Shown here in pieces: positions 4,043-29,380 of a stretch of 33,813 bases of DNA. The DNA lies in assembly GCA_003045865.1 (NCBI GenBank), contig PZPB01000024.1, positions 1-33,813 on the forward strand, read 5' to 3'. The stretch is from Bacteroidota bacterium. GTDB lineage: Bacteria > Bacteroidota > Bacteroidia > Flavobacteriales > Schleiferiaceae. The position numbers were made by a program, and so were the translations under genes. The number at the start of each line of letters is the position of its first letter. The first letter of the stretch is position 1. The notes below the pieces were generated by a model. That model had not been told where the DNA came from and did not search any database. It was given only the letters and a program-made list of their open reading frames with translations.

Positions 4043-4717
4043 TTAAAGGATAAAGTCACTGAGATTTTATGCATGACAGACGATTTCTGCAAAGAAATGG
4101 ATCGGGTCATAGATCAAAATTCAATCGTAGAAGATGCCGGTAAAGCGAGACGCAAGAAACCTAGTAGAATGTCAGGTGTTAGCTTAGAACTAGCATGATT
4201 CTCTTTCATTTAAAGGGATACCGCTGCCTAAAGCACTTTTATTTTAATCATATCACCCAGCATATACGGGATGATTTTTCGCAAACTGTCTCCTACAATC
4301 GTTTCGTGAAGCTTCAAAAGAAATGTATTCTCCACATGGTCTTATTCCTACAGACCTGTTGCGTGGGTCAGTGCTCGGGTATTTCTTTTATGGAATCTAC
4401 TGTAATCAAATCTGTCAACCCAAGCGAGAAAAGCAGAACAAGGTCTTCAAAGGCATCGCTTCTAAGGGGCGCAGCACAATGGGTTGGTTCTTTGGTTTTA
4501 AGCTACACATCATCATTAATGAGCGCGGAGAAATCATTGATTTTTTGATCACCCGAGGCAATGTGGATGACAGAAAGCCCCTAAAAGACATGAGTTTCCA
4601 TGATAAAATTATTTGGGAAGCTTTTTGGAGACCGCGGGTATCTTGGAAAAGACCTTTACAGAGGAGCTTTTTGTTAATGGTATTCACCTCCTTTCAGCGA
4701 TTGAGCTAAACTTATAA
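4043..4717 (+). pseudogene. IS982-family transposase, frameshifted and truncated
   Basis: The protein can be pieced together across at least four frame changes. Segment 1 (about 4047-4180) reads DKVTEILCMTDDFCKEMD and RRKKPSRMS. Segment 2 (4195-4410) reads MILFHLKGYRCLKHFYFNHI, QTVSYNRFVKLQKK and GISFMESTVIK. Segment 3 (about 4415-4605) reads REKQNKVFKGIASKG, GWFFGFKLHIIINERGE and GNVDDRKPLKDMSFHDKI. Segments 4 and 5 (to 4717) read LFGKLFGDRGYLGKDLYR and ELFVNGIHLL in two further frames. The order and motifs match IS982 transposases (DDE type). The conserved Asp expected in the SFMDST motif is Glu here. The C-terminal part containing the last catalytic Glu is deleted, so the enzyme cannot be active. 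Confidence 0.85.
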
Positions 4718-7858: not shown

Positions 7859-7864
7859 TAACTA
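7859..7864 (+). repeat. Target-site duplication TAACTA, left of MITE copy 1
   Basis: TAACTA directly before the element, repeated at 8126-8131 directly after it. Confidence 0.75.
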
Positions 7865-8125
7865 ACGTGAGTTCGACGTAAAATTAGGCCTCAGACCTCT
7901 TATAAATAGTGGGTTTCAAGCCGAAGCAGTGAAGCAATAGCGGGCTATTGTGAGCTGCTGAGGCGTGGAAAGCCGCTTTTTAGAAGGGGCCTAAACGGAT
8001 TTTCCAATAAAAATGAAAATCCTGCATCTAGCTCATTTGCTGTAGCCCGCTACAGCTGCACGATCCAGACTAGTCTTTTCCTTCCATTGAAAATCTGAGG
8101 CTCTAATTTATTGTCGAATTCACGT
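7865..8125. mobile_element. MITE, full-length copy 1 (261 bp), related to the IS982-type element
   Basis: Begins ACGTGAGTTCGACG and ends CGAATTCACGT. The terminal inverted repeat extends imperfectly for about 31 bases: left ...AAATTAGGCCTCAGA, right read inward ...AAATTAGAGCCTCAGA. Internal hairpins include CAATAG/CTATTG nested in GCAG/CTGC and GGGTTTCAAGCC/GGCGTGGAAAGCC, then GGATTTTC/GAAAATCC, then GCTGTAGC/GCTACAGC. It has no coding frame of note. The outer 11 bases match the ends of the IS at 3934-4728, and the copy is about 95% identical to that at 29123-29370. It lies 131 bases before the first giant T9SS gene and could influence its transcription. Confidence 0.85.
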
Positions 8126-8131
8126 TAACTA
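8126..8131 (+). repeat. Target-site duplication TAACTA, right of MITE copy 1
   Basis: Direct copy of the six bases at 7859-7864. Confidence 0.75.
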
Positions 8132-8256
8132 GTACAAACGTAATTTTTCCAAGAAGGTTGGTCTTTTAAATGGTGAATTTTGATATTTTCTGTTTTTCCC
8201 CCTTAAATATTCAATGGAAGTGATAATTTAGGGGCCTTAAATCTAAATGAGAAACT

Positions 8257-11200
8257 ATGAGAAAATTATTACTATTTCTAACTTTATCTTGCGCTTGGCT
8301 GTTCTCGGTCGGGCAGGGTACACTAACCACTTTTCCACCTTTAACAGCTAACAACGGGCAAAGCGGTGTTACTTTTCAGGTAAGCTCCACTTCTCCGGCC
8401 AATATAACGGCGATCGGTTGTGTGGTTAATGCAGGTGTCACATCTGCGGATGTTTGGATTAGAGTGGGTGGTGTTTCCTCTGCCGGTGCGCCTAATATTA
8501 CCGTAGCTGGTGGTTGGACTCAAGTAGTTACCGCCGGTACCGTAACTGGAGCAACAGGTACGAGTATTGCTCCCATAGCCATTGCTACTCCCATTGCTAT
8601 TCCAGCTAATACACCTGTTGGAGTTTATATTGGGGCTGGTTTAAGATATCAGTCAGGTACTGCAGCTGATGTAGTTACTTACACTGATGGCACCTTTACC
8701 GTGGATGTATCGAATGGTGTATCCTATGGAGGAGCTGCTCCAAACCCAACCTTCAATCCAAGAAGATTCTTAGGTTCAGTAACCTATGCTTTAGCGGTTA
8801 CAGGTAACTGTACACCTTTTACTGGATTTTTAATTGATAGTATTTCTTCAAGTGCTTCCAAGTTAAGCTGGACCCCTGGAGCAAGTAACTCATCTTTTAA
8901 AGTTGAGTATGGTGTGGCAGGCTTTACCCCAGGCACAGGAACCACTGTTACAGGAACTTATCCTGGTTCACAGCCTCCGGTAATTTTAACAGGCTTAAAT
9001 CCAAATACTAATTATGATGTATGGTTAGAGGAATATTGTAATACGGGTGCTGATACGGTAGGTTTTCCTGCGCCTCAAAGCTTTACCACTACAAAATTAT
9101 GTGCGGCTCCAACGGCCTTAACCGATTCCAACTTAACTTCTAATTCTATTGATTTAGGATGGGCTCAAGCAGGTTCTTATAACTCAGCTTGGATTCTTTA
9201 TGGTCCTGCAGGAACTACTCCTGGTAGTGCCGGTTGGATGATTGATTCAGTGCTATCGCCAGCCACTACTTTTACTATCACAGGCTTAACCTCTAGTACC
9301 GCTTATGATATTTATTTAGCCACCAATTGTGGTTCTGTAAACGGTATAAGTGATACGGTAGGTCCTATTAGTATAACTACGCCTATTTCTGGTCCGCAAG
9401 GACTTAATTGTACAGTAGGTAGTGCTGGTCCGTTATTCTCTGACGATTTTGAAAGTCAAGGAAGTTGGACTGGTGACTGGGGAACTGGAACTACTGCCTC
9501 TAATTGGAACTACCGCAGTGGGGGAACGGGATCATCTGGTACTGGGCCAAGTGGTGCACATTCAGGTTCTCAATACATTTATGTTGAAACTTCTGGAACG
9601 CCGAGTGGTGCTAACGTGGAAGCGATTTCACCGCGTATTGATTTAAGTACCTCTTTCAATAGTGCAGAATTATCTTTTTGGCTACACGCTTATGGTGCAG
9701 GTATCGATACTGTTAAAGTGCAGGTTGGTAGCACAGCGAGTGGCCCTTGGTCAACCGTGTTTACCAATGTGGGTCAAATCCAAACCAATAATACCGATCC
9801 TTGGCAAAATGTAGGAGTGAATTTAGATGCCTACGTAGGCACAGCTATTCACTTGCGTTTTGTTTATGTACACGGATCTGGCTTTACCGGTGATGTAGGT
9901 ATTGACTTGGTGGAAGTTAATTCTTGCCAAACTTGTCCGAATTCAGGTAATCCAAACTTAGTATTTGTTTCAAGCGATAGTGCTTCTTTCACTTGGTCGG
10001 GTTCAGGAACTTCTTACGATATTAACTGGGGTCCTGCAGGCTTTTCGCAGGGTTCAGGTTCTACTAGTTTTGATAGCACTTCGGTTAATGGTATTTCTAT
10101 AGGCGGATTAATGGGTAATACTAGCTATGACATTTACGTAAGAAATAACTGTAGCGATTCTGCCAATGGTTTTGGCGGCTGGGTTGGTCCTCTAACCTTT
10201 ACTACTTTATGTAATCCTTTTACAGCGCCTTACAGCAATAATTTTGATGCTGATATTCTAGATCAAGCGCCTAACTGTTGGGATAATTTTTTAAGTGGAG
10301 CGAATACTCAATTTTCTGATGCCTATGTATTTACTCCTAGTGCAACCTATCCACCTATTTCTTCACCCAATGTTGTTCAGTTGTATAATTACAACAACGA
10401 TACAACTTGGTTGATTACTCCACAGTTTAGCGATTTAAGTAGTGGCGCAAACCGTATTAGCTTCCACGCGATGACTACGACCACGGCTACCGGTAACGAT
10501 TTAATTATAGGAACAATAGCAAGCCCAAGTGATCGTGCTAGTTTTACCGCAATCGATACAGTTACCGTAACAAGAAACTATGCTCAATTTGTGGTTGATA
10601 TAACTACTGCAAATGGTTATAATGGCACGCATGAGTTTATTGTCTTCAGACATGCCGCTAGTGCATCTTTCCGTACTTACTATATCGATGATTTCGTTTA
10701 CGAAGCCATTCCAAGTTGTAATCCTCCGCTAATTAGCACCTTAGGAGTTAATTATACTACTTCTACCGATGCTGAAGTATTCTGGGGAAGTGGTTCAGAT
10801 GGTGATACCACCTTTATCGAATACGGTCCTTTAGGTTTTACGCCTGGAGTAAACGCATTAGGCACGATTTCGGTTACGGGTTCAATGGACACTGCCTTAA
10901 TTACTGGCTTAACTTCTGAAACAGACTATGAATTTTATATTCAAGATAGCTGCTTTGGCAACGGAACGAGTCCTTATGTAGGACCAGTAGCCTTCAAAAC
11001 CGCTTGTGCTATTAGTAGTGCTGCGATTTTACCATTAGTAGATGGTTTTGAAAATTACACCAGTGGACCAACCTTTACTGGTGCTAACGCTTACTTCTGT
11101 AATCCATCTTATAACTGGACTTTCGTTCCTGCTGGCAACGGTAGAGCGAGATTACAGGCTAATGCTCTTTATTATAATTCTGGTGCGCAAGCCTTCACTA

Positions 11201-14200
11201 TGGATCAAAGCTCATTCCCTTCTCAAGTAGAAACGAATAGCTTAATTATGACCGTTAACCTATCTAACTACACTACCGCCGGTGGGATTGAATTAGGTTT
11301 TGTTATTATGGATCATAGTGCTACGGTTCGTCCAGATGATAAAGTTTATGTGCGTGGTTCGGCTTCGGATCCTTGGATTCAAATCCTTGACTTAATTACT
11401 GCTGTTTCAGGTACAGGTTTCCACGATTCAATAACCAATATTGATATCATGGCCCCAATTACCGCTGCTGGACAAACAGTAGGGGCGGCAACGCAAATCA
11501 TGTTTACTCAGTCAGGCCAATCACAGGCAATTACCGCTACTTGTTGCGAGGGTTATTCATTAGATGACGTAAGTCTAACTGCGGTTTCTTGTCCTAATCC
11601 AACTGGCTTAAATACAAGTGCATTAGTAGATACTTCTGTAACTATGGCTTGGGCCAATAGCGCTTCTGCGGGTCAGTATCAGTACTGGTTTGGTCCTGCT
11701 GGATTCTATCAAGGTACAACTACCGTTGGTGGTGTTAAGCAATATACTACCGCTAGTAGTGTAACAATTGATACTCTTCGTCCTACAACTTGCTATCAAT
11801 TCTTAGTACGCGGTGTTTGTGCACCAGGTGATACTTCGGGTTGGGTAGGTCCCTTTGACTTCTGTACTACCTGTCCAGTAAATTTCAGCATGCCTTACTT
11901 TACTGATTTTGAAATAACAGCTCCAGGTATAGCTCAAGGCAGCCCTGCAGGTTGGGCTAATTGTTGGACAACCTCTGCACCAGGGGGAACTCTAAGATGG
12001 GAATCGGAAGATGCTAGTGGAGCGAATGAGAATTCTTTAAATACAGGTCCTTTCTTGGATAACACCCTTGCGCCTAATACAGGTGGTAAGTATATGTATT
12101 TAGAGACCTCTACTTCAGGAACGTATGCTGATTTAGTTTCTCCAGGAATTAACCTTAATGGTGCCGTAAACCCTCAAGTAGAGTTTGCCTACCATATGTT
12201 CGGAGCTACCATTAATAAATTAGTTTTACTAGCTGAAAACGTTACTACTGGAGCAGTTACTACTTTAGATAGTATCGTTGGTCAGCAACAAACTGCTGGC
12301 TCTGATCCATTTAACACGCATGTGACTAATGTATCTAGTTTAGCTTCAGGATCTTACCGATTCATCTTTAGAGGATATATTGGTACTTCATTTACTGGTG
12401 ATATCTCTATTGATGATGTATTTGTGATGGAAGCGCCTACTTGTCCTCGTCCTGCAGGATTAATGATGGATAGTGCTTCTTTAACAAGTATTACCGCTAG
12501 TTGGACATCTAATGGTACTGGTTCAAGCTGGGCCTTAGAATACGGTCCTTCGGGTTTTACTCCCGGTTCAGGTACTTCAGTAGTAGCAACTTCTAATCCT
12601 TATACCATTACTGGCTTAACTGCAGCTACAGCTTACGATGTTTACGTAGCTGAGATTTGTGGTGCTGGTGATACAAGTATTTCAGTGGGGCCTGTTTTAA
12701 TGAATACTACCCTTTGTAATCCAAGTTCTTTATGCTGGTATCAAATCGATCTTGAAGATTCATTTGGTGATGGTTGGAATGGAGCCCTATTAGATGTGGT
12801 TCAGAATGGTGTGGTTGTAGCAACTTTAGGTCAGAGCTTTACCACTGGAAACCTTTACCAAGATTCTGTACAAGTATGTGATGGCTTAAGCACAGCTTTT
12901 GTTTTATCAGCAGCAGGAGGTTGGCCCTCAGAAGTAGGTATTACGGTTACCACGCCTTACGGTACTCAGGCAGGTCAGTATACTAACTCTCCAGCAACCG
13001 CTCAAGGTGATACCTTAGTTAACGTAGTAATTCAGTGTACTGCTCCAACTTGTCCGCAGCCCACAGGCATTGCAGTTGCAAGTGTTACTGGAACAACGGC
13101 CTCTATTTCTTGGACCAGTATGGGAACAGGAACGGCCTGGGAAATTGAGTACGGAACGGGTACTTTCTTACCTGGTGCAGGTACTACAGTAAGTGCTCCT
13201 ACCAATCCATTTACCCTAACCGGTTTAAATGGTTCTACCAATTACAACGTATATGTACGCGAAATTTGCGGTGCAGGTGATACTTCGGTATGGGCAGGCC
13301 CAATTAACTTCGCTACAGCTTGTGTTACGGTTAATGCTCCTTACTTTACTGATTTTGAAAATATTCCTATCGGTGTTGCTACAGGAACTCCTTTAAGCTG
13401 GAACAACTGTTGGACTGCAAGTACGGGCACTTTCCTTTGGGAGTCTGAGGATGCAACTGGTGCGAATGAGAATTCATTAAATACTGGTCCTTTCTTCGAT
13501 AATACAACTCCTTCTACTGCAGGAGGTACTTATATGTATATCGAAACTTCATCAACAGGTACTGCGGCTGAATTAGTTTCTCCAGCAGTTGACTTTAGTG
13601 GTTTAACTAACCCAGAGTTGAAGTATCATTATCATATGTATGGTGCCACGATTAATAAATTAGTGGTTTATGCTCAAGATGCATCTGGAATAAGAACTGC
13701 CATCGATAGTATTATCGGTCAGCAACAAACGGCGGGTTCTGATAGCTTCCGGGTAGCTACCGTTGATTTATCTACTTTAAGCTCTACTACTTATTCCTTC
13801 GTGTTCGAAGGTCACAGAGGAACAAGCTTTACTGGTGATATCTCTTTAGACGATATTAGCGTAGCAGAGGCTGGTGCAACCACTTCTCCTTGTAATGCTC
13901 CCACTATGTTAGTAGCTACTGCCAATGTAGGTTGTGATTCTGTTGAAGTGAACTGGATGTCTAATACCGGTGGTTCTATTTTAGAATATGGTCCTGCAGG
14001 CTTTGCTCCAGGAACGGGTAGCATGACAGGTATTGTTACTGCACCTTATACTATTACTGGTTTAGCGCCAGGAACAGCATACGATGTGTGGGTTGCAGAT
14101 ACTTGTACTGGTGATACCAGTGCTTATGCTAGTCTTTTAAATACTAGCACTGCAACGGCCCCTGTACCAGTAGCTTCTATTAGTAGCTTTACCGATACCA

Positions 14201-14679
14201 TTATAAATGGACAGTACATTTTAACGGTAGACGCTAGTGGTTCTAATAATGCTACCGCTTACTCTTGGGACTTCGGAAACGGAGTTACTGGTAGCGGTGT
14301 TGCTGATACAGTGGTTTACTTAGGAAATGGTGTTTACACGGTTATTCTTACCGCAACTAATGCTTGTGGTACTTCTACAGATACCATTACCGTAAATGTG
14401 AACATTGGTTTAGAAGATAATCCTCTTGCAAATAGCTTGAATGTTTATCCTAACCCAGCACAATACAGCGTAAATGTTAGTTTCCGAGAAGTAGGAAGTG
14501 CTGATGTACAAATTACTTTACGTGATGCTCAAGGCAGAAACGTAATTAACATGAATGATCGCATGCAAAGTGGAACTTACAGCAATGATATTGATGTATC
14601 TGGTCTAGCACGTGGAATTTACATGTTAGAAATTAAATCTGGTTCTTTAACCGCTCACCGTCGTGTAAGCATTAAATAA
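8257..14679 (+). CDS. Giant T9SS-secreted mosaic of fibronectin-III and MAM-like modules (paralogue 1)
   Basis: Encodes 2140 aa. Signal peptide 1-20; an N-terminal beta-rich domain of unrecognised family (about 21-182). Then eight FN3 modules (about 184-282, 283-378, 565-650, 824-915, 1113-1203, 1398-1485, 1596-1688, 1880-1965), each with the EYGPAGFxPGTGT and TGLxxxTxYDVYVxxxC signature. These alternate with five MAM/cleaved-adhesin-like jelly rolls (about 391-560, 652-823, 922-1112, 1212-1397, 1694-1873). A distinct domain with DSFGDGWNG lies at about 1493-1595. A PKD-like domain is at about 1967-2050 and a type A T9SS sorting domain at 2052-2140 (LNVYPNP, GIYMLEIKSG). It is expected to be exported by the T9SS and attached to the surface or released, acting as adhesin or matrix protein (inference). 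No catalytic motif is seen. MAM-like modules 4 and 5 are clearly recent internal copies. Confidence 0.9.
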   Translation: MRKLLLFLTLSCAWLFSVGQGTLTTFPPLTANNGQSGVTFQVSSTSPANITAIGCVVNAGVTSADVWIRVGGVSSAGAPNITVAGGWTQVVTAGTVTGATGTSIAPIAIATPIAIPANTPVGVYIGAGLRYQSGTAADVVTYTDGTFTVDVSNGVSYGGAAPNPTFNPRRFLGSVTYALAVTGNCTPFTGFLIDSISSSASKLSWTPGASNSSFKVEYGVAGFTPGTGTTVTGTYPGSQPPVILTGLNPNTNYDVWLEEYCNTGADTVGFPAPQSFTTTKLCAAPTALTDSNLTSNSIDLGWAQAGSYNSAWILYGPAGTTPGSAGWMIDSVLSPATTFTITGLTSSTAYDIYLATNCGSVNGISDTVGPISITTPISGPQGLNCTVGSAGPLFSDDFESQGSWTGDWGTGTTASNWNYRSGGTGSSGTGPSGAHSGSQYIYVETSGTPSGANVEAISPRIDLSTSFNSAELSFWLHAYGAGIDTVKVQVGSTASGPWSTVFTNVGQIQTNNTDPWQNVGVNLDAYVGTAIHLRFVYVHGSGFTGDVGIDLVEVNSCQTCPNSGNPNLVFVSSDSASFTWSGSGTSYDINWGPAGFSQGSGSTSFDSTSVNGISIGGLMGNTSYDIYVRNNCSDSANGFGGWVGPLTFTTLCNPFTAPYSNNFDADILDQAPNCWDNFLSGANTQFSDAYVFTPSATYPPISSPNVVQLYNYNNDTTWLITPQFSDLSSGANRISFHAMTTTTATGNDLIIGTIASPSDRASFTAIDTVTVTRNYAQFVVDITTANGYNGTHEFIVFRHAASASFRTYYIDDFVYEAIPSCNPPLISTLGVNYTTSTDAEVFWGSGSDGDTTFIEYGPLGFTPGVNALGTISVTGSMDTALITGLTSETDYEFYIQDSCFGNGTSPYVGPVAFKTACAISSAAILPLVDGFENYTSGPTFTGANAYFCNPSYNWTFVPAGNGRARLQANALYYNSGAQAFTMDQSSFPSQVETNSLIMTVNLSNYTTAGGIELGFVIMDHSATVRPDDKVYVRGSASDPWIQILDLITAVSGTGFHDSITNIDIMAPITAAGQTVGAATQIMFTQSGQSQAITATCCEGYSLDDVSLTAVSCPNPTGLNTSALVDTSVTMAWANSASAGQYQYWFGPAGFYQGTTTVGGVKQYTTASSVTIDTLRPTTCYQFLVRGVCAPGDTSGWVGPFDFCTTCPVNFSMPYFTDFEITAPGIAQGSPAGWANCWTTSAPGGTLRWESEDASGANENSLNTGPFLDNTLAPNTGGKYMYLETSTSGTYADLVSPGINLNGAVNPQVEFAYHMFGATINKLVLLAENVTTGAVTTLDSIVGQQQTAGSDPFNTHVTNVSSLASGSYRFIFRGYIGTSFTGDISIDDVFVMEAPTCPRPAGLMMDSASLTSITASWTSNGTGSSWALEYGPSGFTPGSGTSVVATSNPYTITGLTAATAYDVYVAEICGAGDTSISVGPVLMNTTLCNPSSLCWYQIDLEDSFGDGWNGALLDVVQNGVVVATLGQSFTTGNLYQDSVQVCDGLSTAFVLSAAGGWPSEVGITVTTPYGTQAGQYTNSPATAQGDTLVNVVIQCTAPTCPQPTGIAVASVTGTTASISWTSMGTGTAWEIEYGTGTFLPGAGTTVSAPTNPFTLTGLNGSTNYNVYVREICGAGDTSVWAGPINFATACVTVNAPYFTDFENIPIGVATGTPLSWNNCWTASTGTFLWESEDATGANENSLNTGPFFDNTTPSTAGGTYMYIETSSTGTAAELVSPAVDFSGLTNPELKYHYHMYGATINKLVVYAQDASGIRTAIDSIIGQQQTAGSDSFRVATVDLSTLSSTTYSFVFEGHRGTSFTGDISLDDISVAEAGATTSPCNAPTMLVATANVGCDSVEVNWMSNTGGSILEYGPAGFAPGTGSMTGIVTAPYTITGLAPGTAYDVWVADTCTGDTSAYASLLNTSTATAPVPVASISSFTDTIINGQYILTVDASGSNNATAYSWDFGNGVTGSGVADTVVYLGNGVYTVILTATNACGTSTDTITVNVNIGLEDNPLANSLNVYPNPAQYSVNVSFREVGSADVQITLRDAQGRNVINMNDRMQSGTYSNDIDVSGLARGIYMLEIKSGSLTAHRRVSIK

Positions 14680-14697
14680 GAATTAGTCCCTTTAACT

Positions 14698-14731
14698 AAA
14701 AGCCGCTCAGAAATGAGCGGCTTTTTTTTTT
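14698..14731 (+). terminator. Rho-independent terminator after giant gene 1
   Basis: Perfect 12-bp stem AAAAGCCGCTCA / TGAGCGGCTTTT with a 4-base loop and a run of ten or more T. The stem is identical to that after giant gene 2. Confidence 0.9.
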
Positions 14732-14793
14732 GAATCATTTTAGTGGCTATATTTGAGAAAGTTCGATAGATTATTTAACCCTAAATTTTGATT

Positions 14794-17700
14794 ATGAAAA
14801 AAAAGTTACTACTATTTTTCTCTCTTTTAGCGCTAGTTAGCTGGGGTCAGGGGACAATTACAACCTCTCCGCCACTTACGCCAAATAATGGTCAAAGTGG
14901 GATAACTTTCGCCGTAAGCTCCAATACTCCCACCGAAATCACCGGTATCTCGAACATCTTTTCTACCGGTGCAACTACTGCAAGTGTGTGGGTAAGAGTT
15001 GGTGGTGTAAATGGCCCGCCCACAATTAGCGTAGCCAATGGTTGGCAGGAAGTTATTGTGAATGCACCGCTTACCGGAGCAAACAATACTTCTTTAGTTG
15101 CGATTCCTTTCGGAGCGAATGTGATTAATATTCCCGCCAACACCCCGGTAGGAATTCATATTGCAGGCAATACACGTTATCAAACGGGAACAGCTGCAGA
15201 TGTTGTAACTTATACCGATGGAACCTTTACGGTAAGCACGGCCGACTCAGTTTCTTATGGTGGTGGTCTTCCTAATCCAACGTTTAATCCCCGCCGCTTC
15301 GTAGGCTCGGTGACTTATGCTTTAGGCATAAGTGGAGGCTGTGCTAATTTGTTTTCCAATTTCAACATTGGCAGCATTGCAACGGATAGTGCTCAAATTA
15401 ACTGGACACCGGGTACAGGTAACACAGGATACCGAATAGAATATGGTCAAGCAGGTTTTATACCGGGTAGTGGTACCTTTGTAACAGGAACTTATCCTGC
15501 GAATAACCCTCCCTTAAATATTAGCAGTCTTATTCCCGACACAGATTATGATGTGTACTTTACCGAGTATTGCGGAACAGATTCTGTTTATTTCCCTGCC
15601 GCCCAACCTTTTACGACATTGCCAGTTTGCCCAGCTCCATCTGGGCTTTCTATTATTGCTCTCGATAGTGTTTCTGTAACTTTCGTGTACACAGCAACCA
15701 CCGACTCGCTGAGTTGGGAGTGGGGGCCTGGTGGTTTTACCCAAGGTACCGGTACTTCTGGTACTAGCATTGGCGACACCATTACCATTGGCGGCTTTAT
15801 GCCTAATACTAATTACGATTTAGTGTTAACTTCCGATTGTAGTTTAAGAGGCGATGGATTATCGCGATCAACTACTCTCAATTTTACTACGGATTGTGGT
15901 TATGGTGTAGCGCGCTTTACCGAAAATTTTGATGGCTCTACCTTTCCTTGTTTAAGAGCGTTTACAGATGTTAGCGTAGGAACACCTGTTGTTACCATAA
16001 CAACCGCATTTAATCCCACTTCTGCTCCTCAACAGTTGCAGCTTAACAATAGCTCTGCAACGGGTAGTAATCAAGATGTAATTCTTTACTTCCAACCTTT
16101 CTTTGGGATTTCAGCGCTTAATAAAATGGTAGAGTTTAATGCAAAAACAACTTCTACAACACCTACTACTTTAGATATAATATCAATCCCTAATGCCGAT
16201 TCTGCGGGTATCTATAATGTAATACAAACGGTAACTTTAACCACTTCTAATCAGAGATTTACGATTAATTTAGATGCCGCTTCTAATTATAATGGAACAG
16301 ACGCAACTATAGGTTTTAGACATGGCGCACAAAATACTTTTCAGTCTATTTTAATCGATGATGTGGTCTATGATGTCATTCCTACCTGTTTGCCAATCGA
16401 TCCTTTTACAGTTACTACTTCCGTAGGCGGATCTGATGTTTATTTAAACTGGGCTAGTACGGGTAGTGTTCCCGGAGCAAATGTTCAATATGGAACTGCC
16501 GGCTTTACGCTTGGTACAGGTACTACCGTTGCTACAACCGATACCTTTGCTATTGTTACCGGTTTAGTTGACAATACCCTTTATGATTTTTACATTCAGG
16601 ATTCTTGCGGTGCTAACGACTTATCGGTTTGGGTTGGGCCATTCTCTGTTTTGACCGGTTGCTCTGCACCACTGCCAACGAATTTACCTTTCGCAGACGG
16701 TTTTGAGAACTTTAGCACAGGACCAACTTTTAACGGTACCACTAATTTATGCGCCTCTACTTACGATTGGCGTTTTGACGCTTCCAATGAAACAGCCTCA
16801 CGTATGAGGTTGCAAGCAGGCACAACCTTTTATAGAAATGGTACTCAGGCTTTAACAATGGATCATTCACCCAGTGCCCCTGCGATAGAGTCGAACTTTT
16901 TAACTTTAACGGTTAATTTAACTAATTACACCACTTCTGGAGGTATAGAGTTAGGTTTCTACATCATGTCACATGGTCAAGAAGCTAGTCCTGACAATAG
17001 AGTTTGGGTAAGAGGTAATCCTAGTAATCCTTGGGTAGAAATTGTAAACCTAGACTTAATTCGCTCAGGAAATGGAGTTTATGATTCTGTTCAAAAACTA
17101 GATATTGTAGCACCTCTTAATGCAGCGGGTCAGTCGGTTGGCGCGCTTACGCAGATACGTTTTGGACAAAGGGGAAGATTCTCAGCCAGCAGTATAAACT
17201 TCTCAGATGGATTTACTTTTGATGACGTTACCCTAGACGCAGTTAGTTGTCCTCAGCCATCTGCTTTAAGTATTAGTAATTTGTTTGATACCACCGCTAC
17301 CTTAAATTGGACAGGGACTTCTAGCGCGGGTCAATTCGAATATTGGTTTGGGCCAGGTGGTTTTTACCAAGGAACCACAACGGTAGGCGGCGTAAAAGCC
17401 TTTGCCAATGCCAGTGGAATTTTAGTAGATACGCTAAATGCACAGTCTTGTTACCAGTTTTTAGTGCGCGCTGTATGTGGACCTGGCGATACTAGTACTT
17501 GGGCCGGCCCATTTGAATTCTGCACCCCTTGTTCTCCCATTTCAGCCCCTTATTTTGAAAATTGGGATGCATTGGCGACGGGTAAAGATCTAGGTTGCTT
17601 TGGTAAAATAGAGGACCCTGCATTTTTCACAAGTACTTTTGCTGGAGCTTTAGTAACTCAGTTCGGGGTGCCATTTTCTGGTGCTCGTCAAATTGAATTA

Positions 17701-20700
17701 GATAATAGCAGCTCCAGCTTACCCTTAATGATTGTTTCTCCCCCTACAACCGATCTTACGGCAGGTGACAAGCGCGTAGAAGTGAGAGCAAGACAAAGTT
17801 TTGCGGCTGTTCCGCCCACTCAATTGGTGATTGGTAGTATTGCTAATCCAAATGATGCCAGTACTTTCTATCCTTTAGATACTTTCGATTTAACGGATGC
17901 AAATCCCCATGATCGTTATGTAACTAACTTTACTACGGCCAACGGTTATAATGGCACGGATGCCTACTTTGCCGTTGCACATGGTGCCAATGCTACTTTC
18001 CGAACTTTGTATGTTGATGATCTTACTTATGAAGTAATTCCGTCTTGTCCTCAGCCTTCAAATCTTACTGTTTTGGCGGTTGACTCAATGAATGCCACCG
18101 TTGCATTTAGTCCTTTTGGCGGTAGTGCGGGTAACTTCCAAATTGAATATGGCCCAGGTGGCTTGCAAGGTTCGGTGTTAAATAGCCTGCTATTAGTAAC
18201 AAATGATACTGTTAACTTAAGCAGTCTCTTATCAAATACGAATTATTGTTTCTGGGTGCGTGAAATTTGCGCTCCTGGTGATACTTCTGCTTGGTCAGAC
18301 CCTTTCTGTTTTAAAACACAATGCCAAGCTATTAGTGCGCCTTATTTTAACAATTGGGATAATCTATCGGCAGGTAATGACTTAGGCTGTTTTATAAAAA
18401 TCGAAGATCCTAGTTTGGTTAGTAGTAATTTTTCAGGTTTAACCATTCAAAGTTCAACCTTCAACCAGCCGGTGTCTAATCCAAATGTGGTAGAATTTGA
18501 TAATGGCAGTCCCATTGCCTCTCCTTTAATTATGGTTTCTCCTGCCACAACAGACTTAACCGCTAGCGATAAGCGTTTGCGATTCTTCGCTCGTTCTAAC
18601 TCTGTTTTCAACTTGCGGACCTTAATTGTGGGTTCAATAACCAATCCTGTAGATGCAAGTACCTTTAGTCCTTTAGATACTTTAACAATGACAATTTCAA
18701 TGTTAGAGTATATAGTTGAGCTTACTGCTGCTAATGGTTATAATGGAACAGATCAATACTTTGCTATTGCCCATGGTCAAAATTCTACTTTCCAGACTAT
18801 TTATTTAGATGACCTTAATTATGAAGTAATTCCTTCTTGCGTTCGCCCTAATGCCTTAGCTACTGCTAATATCACACAGTCTACAGCAGATCTTAGCTGG
18901 GCTAATGCGAATGGAAATACTAGTGCATCATATGAAATAGAATATGGCTTAGGCTTATTAGGTGATCCTTCAAATACGAGGGTAATTCAATCAGCAGCTA
19001 GTCTTAATCTTACAGGATTAACTGCTGGTACCGGTTACTGTTTCTGGGTTCGGGAAATTTGTGCTCCCGGAGATTCAAGTTTCTGGGCTGGCCCGGAGTG
19101 TTTCTCTACGCCTTGTCCTACTAGTTATGCGGCTCCTTATTTTACCAACTTCGAAGGTATTACCATTGGAATTGCCGCTGGTACGCCGGCCGGTTGGGAA
19201 AATTGCTGGACGCATAATACCATAACTGGTTCGGTAAGATGGGAGTCGGAAGATGCTTCTGGCGCTAATGAAAACTCTACCGGAACTGGTCCGTTTTATG
19301 ATAATACTTTCCCATCTACTACTGGTGGAACTTATATGTATTTAGAGACATCTACTTCGGGTGGTCCGGCCGAATTAATTTCTCCCGGAATCGATATTAG
19401 TACTGTTTCTAACCCTGAGTTAGAATATCACTACCATTTGTTCGGCGCGACCATTAATAAGCTGGTTATTTACGCAGAAAATGCAACTGGAACCAGAACT
19501 GCCATCGATAGCTTAATTGGAGCTCAGCAGGCTGCTCAGGCCGATCCCTTTGTACGTCGTGCAGTATCTTTAAGTTCTTTAACTTCTGGAGTATATAAGT
19601 TTATCTTCGAAGGGCATCGAGGAACATCCTTTACAGGAGATATATCTATTGACGATGTAAGTGTTCAGCAGGGTGCAAGTTGTGCAAGACCGCTAAGTCT
19701 TAACACTAGCCCTATCTCTACAAATTCTGCCGTAGCACGTTGGACACCCTCTGGCAGCCCAGCTTCTTACCAAGTAGAATACGGTTCCACGGGCTTTACT
19801 TTAGGCACCGGTACTAGTTTAACTAGCACGGCCGATTCTTTAGTAGTAACTTTTGCAACGGCCAATAACCTTTGCCAAGAGATCTATGTGCGAGCTATTT
19901 GTGCGCCTGGTGATACAAGTTTATGGGTTGGTCCAACCGCTATTTGCCCGACTGCTATTCCTTGCGACAGCATTGATCAGTATGATGCGAGCTTGAAACT
20001 TTACGATCAATCGGCTCTATTTGTTCCTTGGGCTGGTAACGCAGGTGATGTAGAAATTTCTACGGCGCAAAGTGCTTCTTCACCACAGTCTTTCCGCATT
20101 CACGATGGAGGAACCGCCGGCTTCTCAGATTTGGTAGCTTTGTTTGATACCATTTCATCTGGAACTTGGGAAGTAGCTTTTGATATGTATGTACCAACAG
20201 GCAAAGGAGCATACTTTAATATTCAGCAAAATTATATTGGTGGAGCAGCTGGTAACCTTTGGGGTGGTGAAGTATATTTCCTCGCAAATGGTACCGCTCA
20301 AGCAGTTTACACGACGGGATCTACTTTGGCAGGCTCATTTAACTATACTCAAGGTCAATGGAATAGTATTTCTACTGTAATTGATCTAGATAATGATAGT
20401 ATCTGGTTTGAGTTGAATGGTAGTTCAACCACTGTTGGTTATACCTATTCTAATGCCAATGCGGGAGGCCCATTACAGTTTAATGGTGTAAACTTCTACT
20501 CTGGTGTTTTAGCGGGTAATACTTACTCAATTGAATACTTTGTAGATAATTTCTGTATTAATCCTCGCGCAACTGCTTGTCCAGATCCGACCAATTTAGT
20601 GGCAACTGCTAATGTTGCTTGTGATAGCATTGAGTTAGATTGGACTAGTAATAGTGGCAGTTCGGCATTGGTTTACGGACCTAGCGGTTTCAATCCTGCT

Positions 20701-21363
20701 ACAGGAGGAACTACGGTAAATAATATTACCGCTCCTTATTCGGTAACGGGATTAACCGCTAATACTGCCTACGATTTCTACGTTTCTGACATCTGCGGAA
20801 GCGATACTAGTAATGCCATAAGTATTACTAATAGTACTGCTAATGCGCCTCAGCCAGTGGCTAGTTTTACAATTGATAGTGCCATTGTGGGTGGGTCTTA
20901 TCAGGTTTACCTAGACGCATCCGCTTCTACCAATGCTACTTCTTATCAATGGAGTTTTGGTAACGGTTCTAGCAGCAGCGCGGCGATTGATACCATGATA
21001 TATAGCGGTAATGGTAACTATACCATCACCCTTATTGTAACAAATGCATGTGGATCCGATACCGCTACGTTCACGACCAATGTAAATATTGGCCTAAACG
21101 AAAATGCATTGGCTAGCAGCCTAAGTGTTTATCCAAACCCAGCTCATCAAACGCTTAATATAAGTTTCCGTGAAGTGGGAAGTGCGGATGTGCAAATCGT
21201 TTTACGCGATGCTCAAGGCAGAAGCGTACTAATGATGAACGATCGAATGGAAAGTGGTACCTATAGCAACGGTTTTGATGTATCAGACTTAGCTAGTGGT
21301 ATTTATATGCTTGAAATTAAGTCGGGTTCTTTAACTGCTCATCGCAGGATAAGTATCAAATAA
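14794..21363 (+). CDS. Giant T9SS-secreted mosaic of fibronectin-III and MAM-like modules (paralogue 2)
   Basis: Encodes 2189 aa from the ATG at 14794; a TTG six bases upstream is less likely because the signal peptide starts MKKKLLLFF. Layout: signal 1-20; the same N-terminal domain (about 21-182) as paralogue 1; FN3 modules near 183-278, 279-367, 533-625, 819-910, 1085-1175, 1351-1440, 1631-1720 and 1929-2015. These alternate with MAM-like jelly rolls near 373-532, 632-818, 918-1084, 1182-1350 and 1447-1630. A concanavalin/LamG-like domain (about 1728-1926, with GTWEVAFDMYVP and YFVDNFCIN) replaces the DSFGDGWNG domain of paralogue 1. PKD-like 2018-2098; T9SS type A tail 2100-2189, nearly identical to that of paralogue 1. 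MAM-like modules 3 and 4 are close internal duplicates. The role is probably adhesion or surface matrix; ligand unknown. Confidence 0.9.
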   Translation: MKKKLLLFFSLLALVSWGQGTITTSPPLTPNNGQSGITFAVSSNTPTEITGISNIFSTGATTASVWVRVGGVNGPPTISVANGWQEVIVNAPLTGANNTSLVAIPFGANVINIPANTPVGIHIAGNTRYQTGTAADVVTYTDGTFTVSTADSVSYGGGLPNPTFNPRRFVGSVTYALGISGGCANLFSNFNIGSIATDSAQINWTPGTGNTGYRIEYGQAGFIPGSGTFVTGTYPANNPPLNISSLIPDTDYDVYFTEYCGTDSVYFPAAQPFTTLPVCPAPSGLSIIALDSVSVTFVYTATTDSLSWEWGPGGFTQGTGTSGTSIGDTITIGGFMPNTNYDLVLTSDCSLRGDGLSRSTTLNFTTDCGYGVARFTENFDGSTFPCLRAFTDVSVGTPVVTITTAFNPTSAPQQLQLNNSSATGSNQDVILYFQPFFGISALNKMVEFNAKTTSTTPTTLDIISIPNADSAGIYNVIQTVTLTTSNQRFTINLDAASNYNGTDATIGFRHGAQNTFQSILIDDVVYDVIPTCLPIDPFTVTTSVGGSDVYLNWASTGSVPGANVQYGTAGFTLGTGTTVATTDTFAIVTGLVDNTLYDFYIQDSCGANDLSVWVGPFSVLTGCSAPLPTNLPFADGFENFSTGPTFNGTTNLCASTYDWRFDASNETASRMRLQAGTTFYRNGTQALTMDHSPSAPAIESNFLTLTVNLTNYTTSGGIELGFYIMSHGQEASPDNRVWVRGNPSNPWVEIVNLDLIRSGNGVYDSVQKLDIVAPLNAAGQSVGALTQIRFGQRGRFSASSINFSDGFTFDDVTLDAVSCPQPSALSISNLFDTTATLNWTGTSSAGQFEYWFGPGGFYQGTTTVGGVKAFANASGILVDTLNAQSCYQFLVRAVCGPGDTSTWAGPFEFCTPCSPISAPYFENWDALATGKDLGCFGKIEDPAFFTSTFAGALVTQFGVPFSGARQIELDNSSSSLPLMIVSPPTTDLTAGDKRVEVRARQSFAAVPPTQLVIGSIANPNDASTFYPLDTFDLTDANPHDRYVTNFTTANGYNGTDAYFAVAHGANATFRTLYVDDLTYEVIPSCPQPSNLTVLAVDSMNATVAFSPFGGSAGNFQIEYGPGGLQGSVLNSLLLVTNDTVNLSSLLSNTNYCFWVREICAPGDTSAWSDPFCFKTQCQAISAPYFNNWDNLSAGNDLGCFIKIEDPSLVSSNFSGLTIQSSTFNQPVSNPNVVEFDNGSPIASPLIMVSPATTDLTASDKRLRFFARSNSVFNLRTLIVGSITNPVDASTFSPLDTLTMTISMLEYIVELTAANGYNGTDQYFAIAHGQNSTFQTIYLDDLNYEVIPSCVRPNALATANITQSTADLSWANANGNTSASYEIEYGLGLLGDPSNTRVIQSAASLNLTGLTAGTGYCFWVREICAPGDSSFWAGPECFSTPCPTSYAAPYFTNFEGITIGIAAGTPAGWENCWTHNTITGSVRWESEDASGANENSTGTGPFYDNTFPSTTGGTYMYLETSTSGGPAELISPGIDISTVSNPELEYHYHLFGATINKLVIYAENATGTRTAIDSLIGAQQAAQADPFVRRAVSLSSLTSGVYKFIFEGHRGTSFTGDISIDDVSVQQGASCARPLSLNTSPISTNSAVARWTPSGSPASYQVEYGSTGFTLGTGTSLTSTADSLVVTFATANNLCQEIYVRAICAPGDTSLWVGPTAICPTAIPCDSIDQYDASLKLYDQSALFVPWAGNAGDVEISTAQSASSPQSFRIHDGGTAGFSDLVALFDTISSGTWEVAFDMYVPTGKGAYFNIQQNYIGGAAGNLWGGEVYFLANGTAQAVYTTGSTLAGSFNYTQGQWNSISTVIDLDNDSIWFELNGSSTTVGYTYSNANAGGPLQFNGVNFYSGVLAGNTYSIEYFVDNFCINPRATACPDPTNLVATANVACDSIELDWTSNSGSSALVYGPSGFNPATGGTTVNNITAPYSVTGLTANTAYDFYVSDICGSDTSNAISITNSTANAPQPVASFTIDSAIVGGSYQVYLDASASTNATSYQWSFGNGSSSSAAIDTMIYSGNGNYTITLIVTNACGSDTATFTTNVNIGLNENALASSLSVYPNPAHQTLNISFREVGSADVQIVLRDAQGRSVLMMNDRMESGTYSNGFDVSDLASGIYMLEIKSGSLTAHRRISIK

Positions 21364-21382
21364 GATTTAATTAGTAATACCT

Positions 21383-21415
21383 AAAAGCCGCTCAGAAATG
21401 AGCGGCTTTTTTTTT
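21383..21415 (+). terminator. Rho-independent terminator after giant gene 2
   Basis: Same 12-bp stem and loop as at 14698-14731, followed by nine T. It was probably copied with the gene in the tandem duplication. Confidence 0.9.
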
Positions 21416-21482: not shown

Positions 21483-21992
21483 ATGAGTTTTAAAGTGGGA
21501 GATATTGTAGCATTCTTAGATGAAGAAGGAACGGGAACTATTATCGCTATAAATGGCGATACGGCCGAAGTGGCCTGTGATCATGGCTTTGATGATCGCT
21601 ATCCACTCAGCAGCTTAATTTTACGTAAAGCCATTCAAGTAGGTGAGGTTATCCAAAAGGATAAGCCAAATAGCGCCAAAATATTAGGCGCTGGAAATAA
21701 AAATATTAAACCAGGCTTTTTGGAAATAGACCTTCATTTTGAAGCTTTAGTAGATTTTCCTAAAAACTTTAATGCCCACGAAAAGTTACAGATTCAATTG
21801 CGAGAATGTCGTAAAACCTTGGATAAAGCTGCTAGAGCGGGAATTAAAAAGGTAGTGCTTATACATGGGGTAGGGCAGGGGCGCTTAAGAGAAGAGATTT
21901 ACTCGATGCTCGAAAGAATGGATAAGATCCGTTTTTACGATGCCAGTTATGCCCAATACGGAAAAGGAGCAACAGAGGTGGAGCTGCTATAA
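21483..21992 (+). CDS. Smr-domain protein
   Basis: Encodes 169 aa. The N-terminal part (about 1-50) is a small SH3-like/KOW-like barrel (VGDIVAFLDEEGTGTIIAI). The C-terminal part (about 82-169) is an Smr domain with the two hallmark motifs EIDLHFE near 81-87 and HGVGQGRLREEI near 122-133, the latter forming the active loop of Smr nucleases. Bacteroidota commonly have a larger DUF2027-Smr protein; this one is shorter. A structure-selective or RNA endonuclease activity is known for Smr domains in general, while the substrate here is unknown. The stop at 21992 is 22 bases from the mature 5' end of RNase P RNA, whose promoter lies in between. Confidence 0.85.
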   Translation: MSFKVGDIVAFLDEEGTGTIIAINGDTAEVACDHGFDDRYPLSSLILRKAIQVGEVIQKDKPNSAKILGAGNKNIKPGFLEIDLHFEALVDFPKNFNAHEKLQIQLRECRKTLDKAARAGIKKVVLIHGVGQGRLREEIYSMLERMDKIRFYDASYAQYGKGATEVELL

Positions 21993-21999
21993 TTTGACT

Positions 22000-22007
22000 T
22001 ACTTTTG
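22000..22007 (+). promoter_or_regulatory. -7 promoter box of rnpB
   Basis: TACTTTTG is a perfect TAnnTTTG box, 6 bases upstream of the first paired base of RNase P helix P1. The spacing fits transcription starting at about 22013. Confidence 0.6.
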
Positions 22008-22013
22008 CAGCGA

Positions 22014-22379
22014 AACAGGCCGCCTTATCGCTCCAATTTATTGGGGAGGAAAGTCCGGACAACATAGAGCACCGTGCTTCCTGAAAGGGGAGGATCTGCG
22101 TTAAGCGGAGACAGAAAGTGCCACAGAAAATATACCGCCTTGGCCGGTTATGCTGGTTTAGGTAAGGGTGAAATGGTGCGGTAAGAGCGCACCGCGTTTT
22201 TGGTAACAAAAACGGCAGGGTAAACCTCGCGGGTTGCAATGCCATGTAAACTGAGGATTGAGCGCTGCTCGCGCGATCTCAGAGGGTAGGCAGCATTAGA
22301 TAAATGATAAGGGTTTTTAACAATTTGGTTTACCAAGGGTTAAGAATACAGAATCTGGCTTATAGGCCTGTTTTTTTTT
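22014..22379 (+). ncRNA. rnpB: RNase P RNA, bacterial class A
   Basis: The catalytic RNA that trims tRNA 5' leaders. Recognisable conserved blocks in order: GGAGGAAAGTCCGGAC near 22044 (P4 5' strand/CR I), the ACAGAAA block near 22110, AAGGGTGAAATGGTGCGGTAAGAGCGCACCGC near 22161-22194 in which the GTAAGAGC core is universal, AGGGTAAACC near 22217, and ACAGAATCTGGCTTATAGGCC near 22348 (P4 3' strand and end). Helix P1 is closed by AACAGGCC (22014-22021) and GGCCTGTT (22365-22372), with the T-run to 22379 acting as terminator. Length of about 360 nt is usual. It has its own -7 box just after the Smr gene. Confidence 0.95.
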
Positions 22380-23671: not shown

Positions 23672-25024
23672 ACTGCAATGTCAGGATTAAGTCATCTTGG
23701 TGAACCATTGCATTGGCTTTCAATGCTATTCGGCCCACTTCTCCCGCAAAGGGTGCTAAAATGGTACTTTCCATTTTCATGGCTTCAATAACAAAAAGGG
23801 GATCATTTTTTTCTACTTTTTATCCTTTTGTAACCACAACACTCACCAATTTGCTTGGTAAAGGTGCGCCAATATCTTTATCGCTGCCAATTTTTTCCTT
23901 TGAAACTTCATTAGAGAAAATGCTTTGGTCCTTCATTTCAATGTGGCGGTTTTGACCATTGAGCTTGAAGTAAACATGTCGGTTTCCATTGGGATAAGGT
24001 TCATTTACGCTCAAGAAGCGAATGAGAATGTTTTTTCCTTGATCAATTTCCACCATAAACTCTTGGTCTGGCTGCATACCGTACCAAAAAATTAGACTAG
24101 GGATGCGCCAAACTTCACCATAGGAATCTTTAAAAGTGGCGTAATCCTTAAATACTTTGGGATAAAGTTTAGAGGAAAGGAAATCTAAAAAGGTATAACT
24201 CTGCCCAAGGTCCTTCTGAAATTCTGGAAACTCCTTATCAAAGTTAATAGGATCCAAATGGGCATTCGGTCTGTCGGTGTAAGCCTTTTCGTTTTTTAGG
24301 ACCGCTTTTTGAAATTCTTTTGGGAATCCGCCGAAAGGCTGACCTAAATCGCCTTTAAAAAAGCTTATGACCGAATCGGGGAAGGAGATCTCATTCGCTT
24401 TCGCTAAGATGTCTTCCTTCGAGTAATTATTGGTGGTCATAAACATCGCCAAGTCGCCACTACCTTGGAGCTGGGCGTAACTTTTACCACATCGCCCATT
24501 AGCTGATTGGCAGCGCGGTAATTGGTTTTAATCGTATTAAATTTATCCTCGATGCCAAGTCCACGCGCTTGAGGCCTAAGGTTGCTGTATTGCCCGCCGG
24601 GAATTTCATGCTCGTATAATTGCGCTGTTCCCGATTTTAAGCCCGACTCGAAGGGATAATACCAATCTCTCACATCTTCCCAATAATTACTAAATTCAGT
24701 GAGGCGACGGAGCTTGATAGGGTTTTCTCTTTCGAGGCCTTTAAGGCTGGCTACTAGAGAGTTAAAATTGGGCTGAGAGGTAAGTCCACTCATCGAGTCG
24801 ATGGCTACATCTACCACATTAACTCCCGCTTCAATCGCCTTTAAATAGGTAGCCGATTGCATACCAGAGGTGTCATGCGTATGCAGATGCAGATGAATAG
24901 GAATATCAACGACCTTTTTCAATTCGGTAATTAAGGTATAAGCCGCATAGGGTTTTAGTAAACCCGCCATATCCTTGATGGCTAAAATATGAGCACCCAT
25001 ATCTTCAATTCCCCGCGCTAAATC

Positions 25025-25030
25025 TAAATA
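25025..25030 (+). repeat. Single remaining target site TAAATA at the MITE scar in pyc
   Basis: TAAATA (TATTTA on the coding strand, a Tyr-Leu codon pair) abuts the left MITE end and fits the TAANTA pattern of the other copies. The right-hand duplicate was lost with the deletion. Confidence 0.6.
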
Positions 25031-25070
25031 ACGTGAGTTCGACGTAAAATTAGGCCTCAGACCTCTTGTA
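25031..25070. mobile_element. Truncated MITE copy 3 (left 40 bp only)
   Basis: Identical to the left end of copy 1 through GACCTCTT, and to copy 2 through GACCTCTTGTA, then breaks directly into pyc sequence. It lies exactly at the deletion in the carboxyltransferase domain of the pyc pseudogene. Confidence 0.85.
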
Positions 25071-26771
25071 CGAATAACTCTCGGCTACTTTAAGCATATC
25101 AATTGTGCGCATGCGGGTGGCAAGCAGCGATTGGTGCGCATCTTTAAAAGTAGTATCGGTATAATAGATTTTCTTCTCCTTAGCCAACCACTGACTGAAT
25201 TTTTCGGGACCGAGTTCTGTCAGAAGATTTTTTGTGCCCGGGGTATGGGCTGCATGTTTATCAAAATCGGGAACTTTTGCGTTACGGAAGCGTCGATTGG
25301 GGTCTGGGTTTTTGACTTCGGGATTGCCGTTTACAATAAGGTCGGCTGTAAAGTTTAGAATACGGGTGCCTCGGTTTCGGCTAAGTTTTAATTGCAGTAA
25401 CTCGGGATGCTTTTCAATAAAGCTTCCCCCTTGCAATCCTGCTCTAAACTCGGGATGTGAAATTACATTTTGTAAAAAAGGAATATTGTTTTTTACACCG
25501 CGTATGCGAAATTCGGACAAGGCTCTTTCCATGCGGCTTGCAGCTACATCAAGGCTGCTTCCCTAGGCTGATACTTTTAGTAAGCGTGTAGTCGAAAAAA
25601 GGTGAAATTTTTACGCCGGGATGGCTACTGCCTTCGTCTAAGCGAATTCTCATCCCTGCGGCATTGCGATAGGCGATGATAGTGCCATAATCGAGCATGA
25701 AATTATTCTCGGGATCCTCGGTAGTGATGCGACATTGAATGGCAAAACCAATGAGTTTTATTTCTTCCTGAGCAGGTATATTAAGCACAGAGCCATTTAA
25801 AGATTCACCTGCGGCAATTTGAATTTGCGCCTTCACTAAGTCGTAGCCCGTAACCTCTTCGGTAATGGTGAGTTCCACTTGAATGCGCGGATTAACTTCA
25901 ATAAAAAAAATATTTTCCTCCTTATCTAATAAAACTCTTCGGTACCCGCATGGGTGTAAGAAACGGCTCGGCCAATATCAAGGGCATATTGATGCAAAGC
26001 TTGGCGTGTTTTATCACTTAAGGTAGATGCGGGAGCTACTTCCACTACTTTTTGAAAGCGCCTTTGCCCGGAACAATCACGCTCATGCAGATGCACTAAA
26101 TTTCCGTGTAAGTCTCCGAGTAGTTGTACTTCAATGTGTTTGGGATCTTCTACTTATTTTTCTAAAAACACGGTAGGATCTCCAAAGGCTTTGGCCGCTT
26201 CATTGGCGGCCTCACTGAAGGATTTTTTCAGTTCATCTTTGCTTCGTACCATCCGCATTCCGCGACCACCACCACCCGAAGCGGCTTTTAAAATCATAGG
26301 AAAACCAATATCATCGGCCGCCACTAGGGCTTCTTCCGTATTTTTTAAATTACTAGCACCTTTTATTATCGGAACATTCACTTTAAGGGCTAGTTCCTTG
26401 GCGGCAATTTTATTTCCCAGTTGTTCCATTATTTCGGGAGCGGGTCCAATGAAGATTATCCCTTCTTTGGGGCAGCGACGGGCAAACGCCATGTTTTCAC
26501 TAAGAAAACCATAGCTAGGGTGAATCGCATCAATTTTTTGGTTGCGAGCGATGCGCAGTATTTCTTCAATGTCGAGATAAGGTTTTAAGGGATCCTCGTC
26601 TGGACCAATTTGATAGGCTTCAACCGCTTTGTCGCGATGCAACGAATAACGGTCTTCAAAACTATATACTGCAACAGTGGTAATTTTTAGTTCGCTCGCG
26701 GCACGAAACACGCGAATAGCGATTTCTGCACGGTTCGCAACAAGTAGTCTTTGGATGGATTTTGATGGCAT

Positions 26772-29109: not shown

Positions 29110-29116
29110 TCTTTAC

Positions 29117-29122
29117 TAAGTA
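29117..29122 (+). repeat. Target-site duplication TAAGTA, left of MITE copy 2
   Basis: TAAGTA directly before the element, repeated at 29371-29376. Confidence 0.75.
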
Positions 29123-29370
29123 ACGTTAAATTAGGCCTCAGACCTCTTGTATTAGTGGGTTTCAAGCCGAAGCAGTGAAGCAATAGCGGGCTATTGTGAG
29201 CTACTAAGGCGTGGAAAGCCTCTTTTTAGAAGAGGCCTAAACGGATTTTCCAATAAAATGAAAATCCTGCATCTAGCTAATTTGCTGTAGCCCGCTACAG
29301 CTGCACGATCCAGACTAGTATTTTCCTTCCATTGAAAATCTGAGGCTCTAATTTATTGTCGAATTCACGT
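29123..29370. mobile_element. MITE, copy 2 (248 bp)
   Basis: Same element and same orientation as 7865-8125, about 95% identical. The left terminal repeat has lost 11 bases between two ACGT tetramers, so it now starts ACGTTAAATTAGG. The right end is intact (GTCGAATTCACGT). The internal hairpins are kept, and CCTCTT/GAAGAGG near 29217 pairs better here than in copy 1. It sits 13 bases after the kinase stop. Confidence 0.85.
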
Positions 29371-29376
29371 TAAGTA
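29371..29376 (+). repeat. Target-site duplication TAAGTA, right of MITE copy 2
   Basis: Direct copy of the six bases at 29117-29122. Confidence 0.75.
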
Positions 29377-29380
29377 GCAC

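Follow-up and report, generated by a model that had tools for sequence, protein, structure and literature searches.

Tandem genes for giant T9SS proteins in a Bacteroidota genus: probable concerted evolution confined to segments of old paralogs

Architecture of the tandem genes

The window (the whole stretch of DNA analysed, 33,813 nt, contig PZPB01000024.1 of assembly GCA_003045865.1 from a member of the Bacteroidota) carries two adjacent genes for giant modular proteins that are likely cargo of the type IX secretion system (T9SS). The duplication that gave rise to them is older than the genus, and comparison with related species suggests that the ends of such tandem genes have since been copied from neighbour to neighbour while the middles have mostly been inherited by position.

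Gene 1 and gene 2 stand head to tail as adjacent direct copies (Table 1). The open reading frame (ORF) of gene 2 spans 14788–21363, with the ATG at 14794 as the likely start. Writing F for an FN3 domain, the order of modules from the N terminus is N-F-F-MAM-F-II-F-E-F-MAM-F-D-F-MAM-F-PKD-tail in gene 1 and N-F-F-II-F-E-F-II-F-II-F-MAM-F-L-F-PKD-tail in gene 2. An earlier interpretation (the sequence-only reading) had described FN3 domains alternating with MAM-like modules, with specific cassettes differing between the genes, and the module maps agree with this. Pfam and NCBIfam matches in the two proteins are to FN3, MAM / choice-of-anchor J, PKD and Por_Secre_tail, and modules E, D and L have no family match above cut-off. 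The Bacteroidota −7 promoter element has the consensus TAnnTTTG, and the resemblance of TATATTTG to it suggests that gene 2 may have its own promoter.

Both sorting tails pass the curated cut-offs of PF18962 (53.9 and 53.2 bits against 27) and TIGR04183 (40.5 and 47.3 bits against 23). The genome has the T9SS translocon gene SprA, an ORF of 2453 amino acids (aa) whose SprA_N match (PF14349) has E = 5.6e-161. Because SprA is present and both proteins exceed the sorting-domain cut-offs, export of both to the surface is likely.

Table 1. Features of the tandem genes, in window coordinates
Feature	Coordinates	Strand	Description
Gene 1	8257..14679	+	Modular protein of 2140 aa, signal peptide, T9SS sorting tail of type A
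N domain	8311..8802	+	~160-aa beta-sandwich, no Pfam family reaching cut-off
FN3_1-FN3_2	8809..9384	+	With N, counterpart of the block exchanged in relatives
MAM / choice-of-anchor J module	9415..9930	+	Position 3, no counterpart in gene 2
Module II	10210..10716	+	Matches NCBIfam choice_anch_J (NF038128), E 9.7e-9
Module E	11005..11589	+	No known family
Second MAM module	11878..12438	+	
Module D	12727..13035	+	Contains the motif FGDGWNG, matches no known family, no counterpart in gene 2
Third MAM module	13324..13875	+	
PKD domain and Por_Secre sorting tail	14167..14676	+	
Intrinsic terminator hairpin	14699..14724	+	3′ of gene 1, one of two genome copies
TATATTTG	14748..14755	+	Resembles Bacteroidota −7 element
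Gene 2	14794..21363	+	Modular protein of 2189 aa ('last gene' type), signal peptide, T9SS sorting tail of type A
N domain	14845..15333	+	62% aa identical to gene 1 N domain
FN3_1-FN3_2	15340..15894	+	FN3_2 groups in last-gene clade
First module II	15895..16386	+	No family match of its own
Module E	16660..17247	+	Last-gene clade at 100/100
Second module II	17530..18045	+	
Third module II	18322..18837	+	
MAM module	19120..19677	+	
Module L	19966..20568	+	SPRY match weak and under cut-off; confined to last genes in this genus
PKD domain and Por_Secre tail	20854..21360	+	
Terminator hairpin, second copy	21384..21409	+	3′ of gene 2

Genomes and module segmentation

The window genome (G000) comprises 3.05 Mb in 169 contigs. 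The comparison set consists of seven genomes of the same genus, one per species. In a rooted UvrA tree the window species branches first within the genus, G005 next and then the remaining species. Modules were delimited with hidden Markov models built from the window genes and applied to 17 genes from seven species, and trees were built for each module type across these genes, with clade support given as paired values (e.g. 100/100). The last gene is the final gene of a tandem array; G005.1, G005.2 and G005.3 denote the first, second and third tandem genes of G005, and genes of other genomes are written in the same way.

Similarity between the two window genes

The two proteins are 62% identical in the N domain, 52% in FN3_1, 54% in the PKD domain and 78% in the sorting tail, a similarity far above chance (blastp E values down to 1e-176). 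As DNA, the two genes can be aligned at their ends, over the MAM modules and in a few places besides. Identity at fourfold-degenerate sites is 17–36% in all modules except the tail (45%, 9 of 20 sites), with 33% expected by chance. The modules common to the two genes are therefore old.

The closest T9SS tail in the genome to that of gene 1 is the tail of gene 2, the next best being 59% identical. As DNA, the tails are 75% identical to each other and at most 72% identical to the tail of any other species. The terminator hairpin AAAGCCGCTCAGAAATGAGCGGCTTT is the same at all 26 positions after both genes, and exactly two copies of this stem exist in the assembly even with three mismatches permitted. 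The common N-terminal domain, PKD domain with sorting tail, and terminator stem proposed from the sequence alone are thus confirmed. Apart from the shared tail and terminator, no recent exchange is visible between the window genes. The possibility that the stem is a generic terminator was considered and rejected; genome-wide scans of G000, G005, G001 and G006 indicate that the stems are specific to the tandem locus.

Age of the duplication

All seven genomes of the genus contain the N domain in tandem copies, two in four of the species and three in the other three. The giant genes are flanked by Lnb / Omp85-like genes and Smr at the same locus wherever the contigs extend, the contig of G002 being without the upstream part. 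The duplication is judged to predate the genus, because silent sites between the window genes are saturated and because modules of the last gene (L, E, FN3 and MAM) are orthologous across species.

Inheritance of the middle modules

In the trees of the module types, most middle modules group by gene position across species and not by genome. For module E a gene-1 clade is separated from a last-gene clade at 100/100, with the hybrid genes of G001 and G006 (below) lying in the gene-1 clade; the MAM and FN3 modules also cluster mostly by position. The order of modules in the last gene is identical in five of the seven species.

Departures from this pattern are of three kinds. The last gene of G001 and G006 is a hybrid, with the front of gene 1 (N to E) joined to the back of a last gene. 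Gene 1 of G002, G004 and G005 contains a II-FN3-MAM cassette that is most similar to the last gene. Finally, the first and middle genes have four module layouts in the seven species, so rare exchange of cassettes did occur. These exchanges amount to few events over the age of the genus and are judged to be rare. Strict one-to-one inheritance without exchange is thus contradicted by the hybrid gene and by the cassette found in three species, although positional orthology prevails, and a variable order of modules among species holds for the first gene.

Exchange at the ends in related species

The clearest tract lies in G005. Between codons ~20 and 375, G005.1 and G005.2 are 93–100% identical as DNA, including one perfect run of ~849 bp. 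Outside this tract the signal peptides are 51% identical and the next MAM module 82%. Identity at fourfold sites is 93–100% inside the tract and falls to 56% at the following MAM module, so constraint on the protein is ruled out as the cause. The tract is best read as a gene conversion covering N-FN3-FN3. The N domain of G005.3 is also nearer to those of its own neighbours (65–83%) than to its orthologs elsewhere, a preference that reverses in FN3_1. Placement of this domain with other last genes is rejected by the approximately unbiased (AU) test (p = 1.65e-5), with the switch at the N/FN3 edge, which indicates an older exchange restricted to N.

In G001 and G006 the informative sites supporting positional orthology against a swap of gene 1 and gene 2 number 37:1 in codons 0–50, 2:23 in codons 50–200 and 262:16 beyond codon 400. 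A clade of G001.2 with G006.2 over codons 40–200 is rejected (AU, p = 5.6e-5). Exchange within this N block is therefore well supported by the sequences. Its exact path is less well supported: the AU test leaves a clade of G001.1 with G006.1 standing (p = 0.10), and the swapped N domains group at only 85/88. Both points count against the interpretation developed below.

At the 3′ end, the tandem genes of G000, G005, G001 and G006 are each time accompanied by a pair of matching terminator stems. The pair is identical in the first three and has two differences in G006. Elsewhere in these four genomes there are no stems matching at that similarity, save one match with three mismatches in G005. 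The terminators are thus alike between neighbours inside a genome and differ from species to species. The sequence-only reading had taken the shared ends to date from a tandem duplication that included the terminator. Tandem copies are indeed general in the genus, but the ends need not be as old as the duplication. Although the copies are older than the genus, neighbours still have matching terminators and have had N-FN3-FN3 replaced from one to the other, so the likeness of the ends was probably at least partly renewed by copying.

Selection

Comparison of one pair of sister species, G001 and G006, gave ratios of nonsynonymous to synonymous substitution (dN/dS) of 0.01–0.1 in nearly all modules. 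With its mixed haplotypes, the N domain of gene 1 has a higher value, 0.19. The modules are under purifying selection, with no sign of diversifying selection in this comparison, and the locus therefore does not fit selection for variation.

The N domain and tandem genes in other genera

The N domain occurs in 30 of the 88 genomes of the bacterial family that were searched, mostly in very large ORFs, with further tandem pairs in G007, G019 and G083. The last ~70 codons of the tails of the pair in G083 (contig C132, another genus) are ~96% identical and the preceding 200 codons 23–73%. This shared tail is found nowhere else in that genome. The pair of G019 (contig C36, also another genus) is built from the same set of modules, and neither its heads nor its tails show a tract shared recently; module L lies in its first gene rather than its last, which implies that cassettes also moved further back in time.

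No Pfam match to the N domain reaches cut-off, and there is no significant sequence match in the PDB. The AlphaFold model is a confident all-beta structure (mean confidence, pLDDT, 95.8). Among PDB structures the fold best resembles PHR-type beta-sandwiches, with TM scores up to 0.6 and no match below E = 1e-3. Because these matches are weak the domain is named only as a beta-sandwich. It appears to represent an undescribed family.

Neighbouring features

The neighbours of the tandem genes are Lnb, an Omp85-like gene, Smr and RNase P RNA. The last of these (bacterial class A, + strand) follows Smr at 22012–22378, and a 128-aa ORF at 21859–22245 is probably not a gene because the RNA overlaps it. 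A short remnant of a transposase DDE domain is located at 4323–4709, between a MatE gene and Lnb.

A dispersed intergenic repeat of ~280 bp is present at 7859–8138, just upstream of gene 1, and at 29106–29383. It has inverted-repeat ends, folds as one long hairpin (z = −6.9) and resembles a miniature inverted-repeat transposable element. There are about 40 copies in the genome, several of them at contig ends. A 46-nt fragment of it (25025–25070) lies inside a broken pyruvate carboxylase-like gene at 23820–26771, which is split into at least four ORFs; G001 and G006 have an ORF of 1146 aa at the corresponding place.

Discussion

The locus is probably best explained as segmental concerted evolution, by ectopic gene conversion, of old tandem T9SS paralogs present as a pair or a trio; we give this a probability of about three in four. 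Adjacent direct copies would recombine by ectopic gene conversion with occasional unequal crossing-over, presumably through homologous recombination of the RecA type. Copying would be kept or tolerated chiefly where the proteins are interchangeable, that is in the N domain with the first two FN3 domains, and in the sorting tail with the terminator. The FN3, MAM and choice-of-anchor-J modules of the middle would remain different between copies and mostly positional, apart from rare in-frame transfers of cassettes and one hybrid gene, and selection against conversion of the middles may account for the difference between middles and ends. The giant proteins may well act as adhesins. This interpretation draws on what can be read in the sequences: the tandem synteny in the genus, the module maps, the tract in G005, the block swap in G001 and G006, and the locus-specific terminators. 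The nearly identical tails of the pair in G083 also speak for it. The outcome looks like slow homogenisation under purifying selection, not a machine for diversity.

Several observations weigh against it, in addition to those on the path of exchange in G001 and G006. For the sorting tail of the window species, plain monophyly of the last genes is not rejected (AU, p = 0.375), and the fourfold sites of the tails (9 of 20) are not clearly above the chance level. After gene 1, 23 of the 26 terminator bases are the same in G000 as in G005; terminators thus evolve slowly, and their identity could be partly conservation. The shared tract in the tails of G083 touches the end of the contig, which cuts the second gene. 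Because the AU test on the tail is not significant, renewed sharing after the genus arose is held with moderate confidence for the window species, and there for the tail and terminator only.

Other explanations place the origin of the pattern elsewhere. The replaced N-FN3-FN3 blocks might have come from other strains or species by horizontal allelic recombination, and not from the neighbouring gene; in G001 and G006 some N haplotypes lack a visible donor in their own genome, the N domains of G001.2 and G006.1 being diverged from all others. We consider this source unlikely, as the partner in G005 is the adjacent gene, with 849 bp of identity, and terminators are common to neighbours and not to species. 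That the ends are alike solely through stronger purifying selection on the N domain and sorting tail is improbable. Ends and middles of the window genes are alike saturated or nearly so at fourfold sites, which speaks for it, and for this pair it is countered at the tail and terminator only, but it is refuted for G005 by the difference in fourfold identity across the edge of the tract. Independent and recent duplication in individual species, with no conversion at all, would account for N domains shared by neighbours within G005 and for terminators shared in several genomes. Such a history is very improbable. It is already contradicted by the module trees, in which last-gene modules are orthologous across species. 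In G005, moreover, the identical stretch ends abruptly inside the genes, and the signal peptide before it and the modules after it are diverged.

The sequence-only reading had favoured a locus that generates surface-protein diversity, in which repeated modules reshuffle the middles of the proteins and antigenic or adhesive variation is selected. The varied layouts of the first and middle genes, the hybrid last gene and the II-FN3-MAM cassette all speak for this, as does the domain rearrangement reported for T9SS adhesins of Porphyromonas gingivalis (PMC5266723). Nevertheless we think it quite unlikely. Generation of diversity finds no support, and against it stand the low dN/dS values between G001 and G006, the middles, which are mostly positional orthologs with the order of the last gene largely kept, and the recent events, which make neighbours more alike. 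No inverted repeats of 40 nt or longer were detected in the window and no dedicated switch system was seen; silent cassettes, invertible DNA or recombination machinery were not seen among the neighbours named above, and both genes are full-length ORFs. Recombination between the genes, as had been proposed, is real in the relatives. The accompanying picture of fixed ends and exchanged middles is nearly the reverse of what is found, the middles being inherited more faithfully.

Segmental conversion could be extended to a more general proposal, which we regard as doubtful. The N-FN3-FN3 head would be a recombination cassette in its own right, with exchange channelled to domain boundaries, and tandem giants would swap or equalise heads and tails while keeping separate middles. 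Such segment-specific concerted evolution would then recur across genera of one Bacteroidota family.

A plausible account of diversification by swapping of middles is thus replaced by a better supported one, in which heads and tails are kept alike and middles distinct. With seven species, each bearing two or three copies, the locus is a clear natural case in which to measure the confinement of gene conversion to parts of modular secreted proteins. It also warns against reading the age of a duplication from terminators or tails held in common. The literature searched, mostly papers outside subscription journals, yielded no account of the locus or of conversion limited to the ends of tandem T9SS giants.

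As type A cargo of the T9SS (Por_Secre_tail, PF18962 / TIGR04183), with a C-terminal tail, a signal peptide and SprA in the genome, the two proteins are otherwise ordinary; the window genome contains 82 tail matches. The nearest precedent in the literature searched is formed by the Kgp, RgpA and HagA proteins of P. gingivalis, T9SS proteins with recombining adhesin modules (PMC5266723). The likeness lies in a modular make-up of repeated domains (adhesin domains in P. gingivalis and putatively here) in combinatorial order, in export to the surface by the T9SS, which is likely here, and in the recombination and gene conversion invoked. In P. gingivalis it is strains of one species that vary, and they do so in the adhesin domains; two of the three proteins contain proteases (PMC5266723). 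Here, by contrast, the genes are in tandem, no protease domain was found, recent copying is resolved best at the N-terminal end (in the relatives), and selection is purifying. Cleaved_Adhesin (CAD, IPR011628) domains have no Pfam match in either protein, only NF038128 being over cut-off, in gene 1; this is therefore a likeness of kind to HagA-type adhesins and not membership.

Long-lasting concerted evolution by gene conversion is documented in prokaryote paralogs, and most of the 26 genes in one survey belong to protein complexes (PMC6053082). As in those cases, paralogs within a genome are more alike than orthologs, here in the relatives of the window species, and this recurs in several lineages. 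Unlike them, the giant surface-protein genes would undergo the process only in segments the size of domains.

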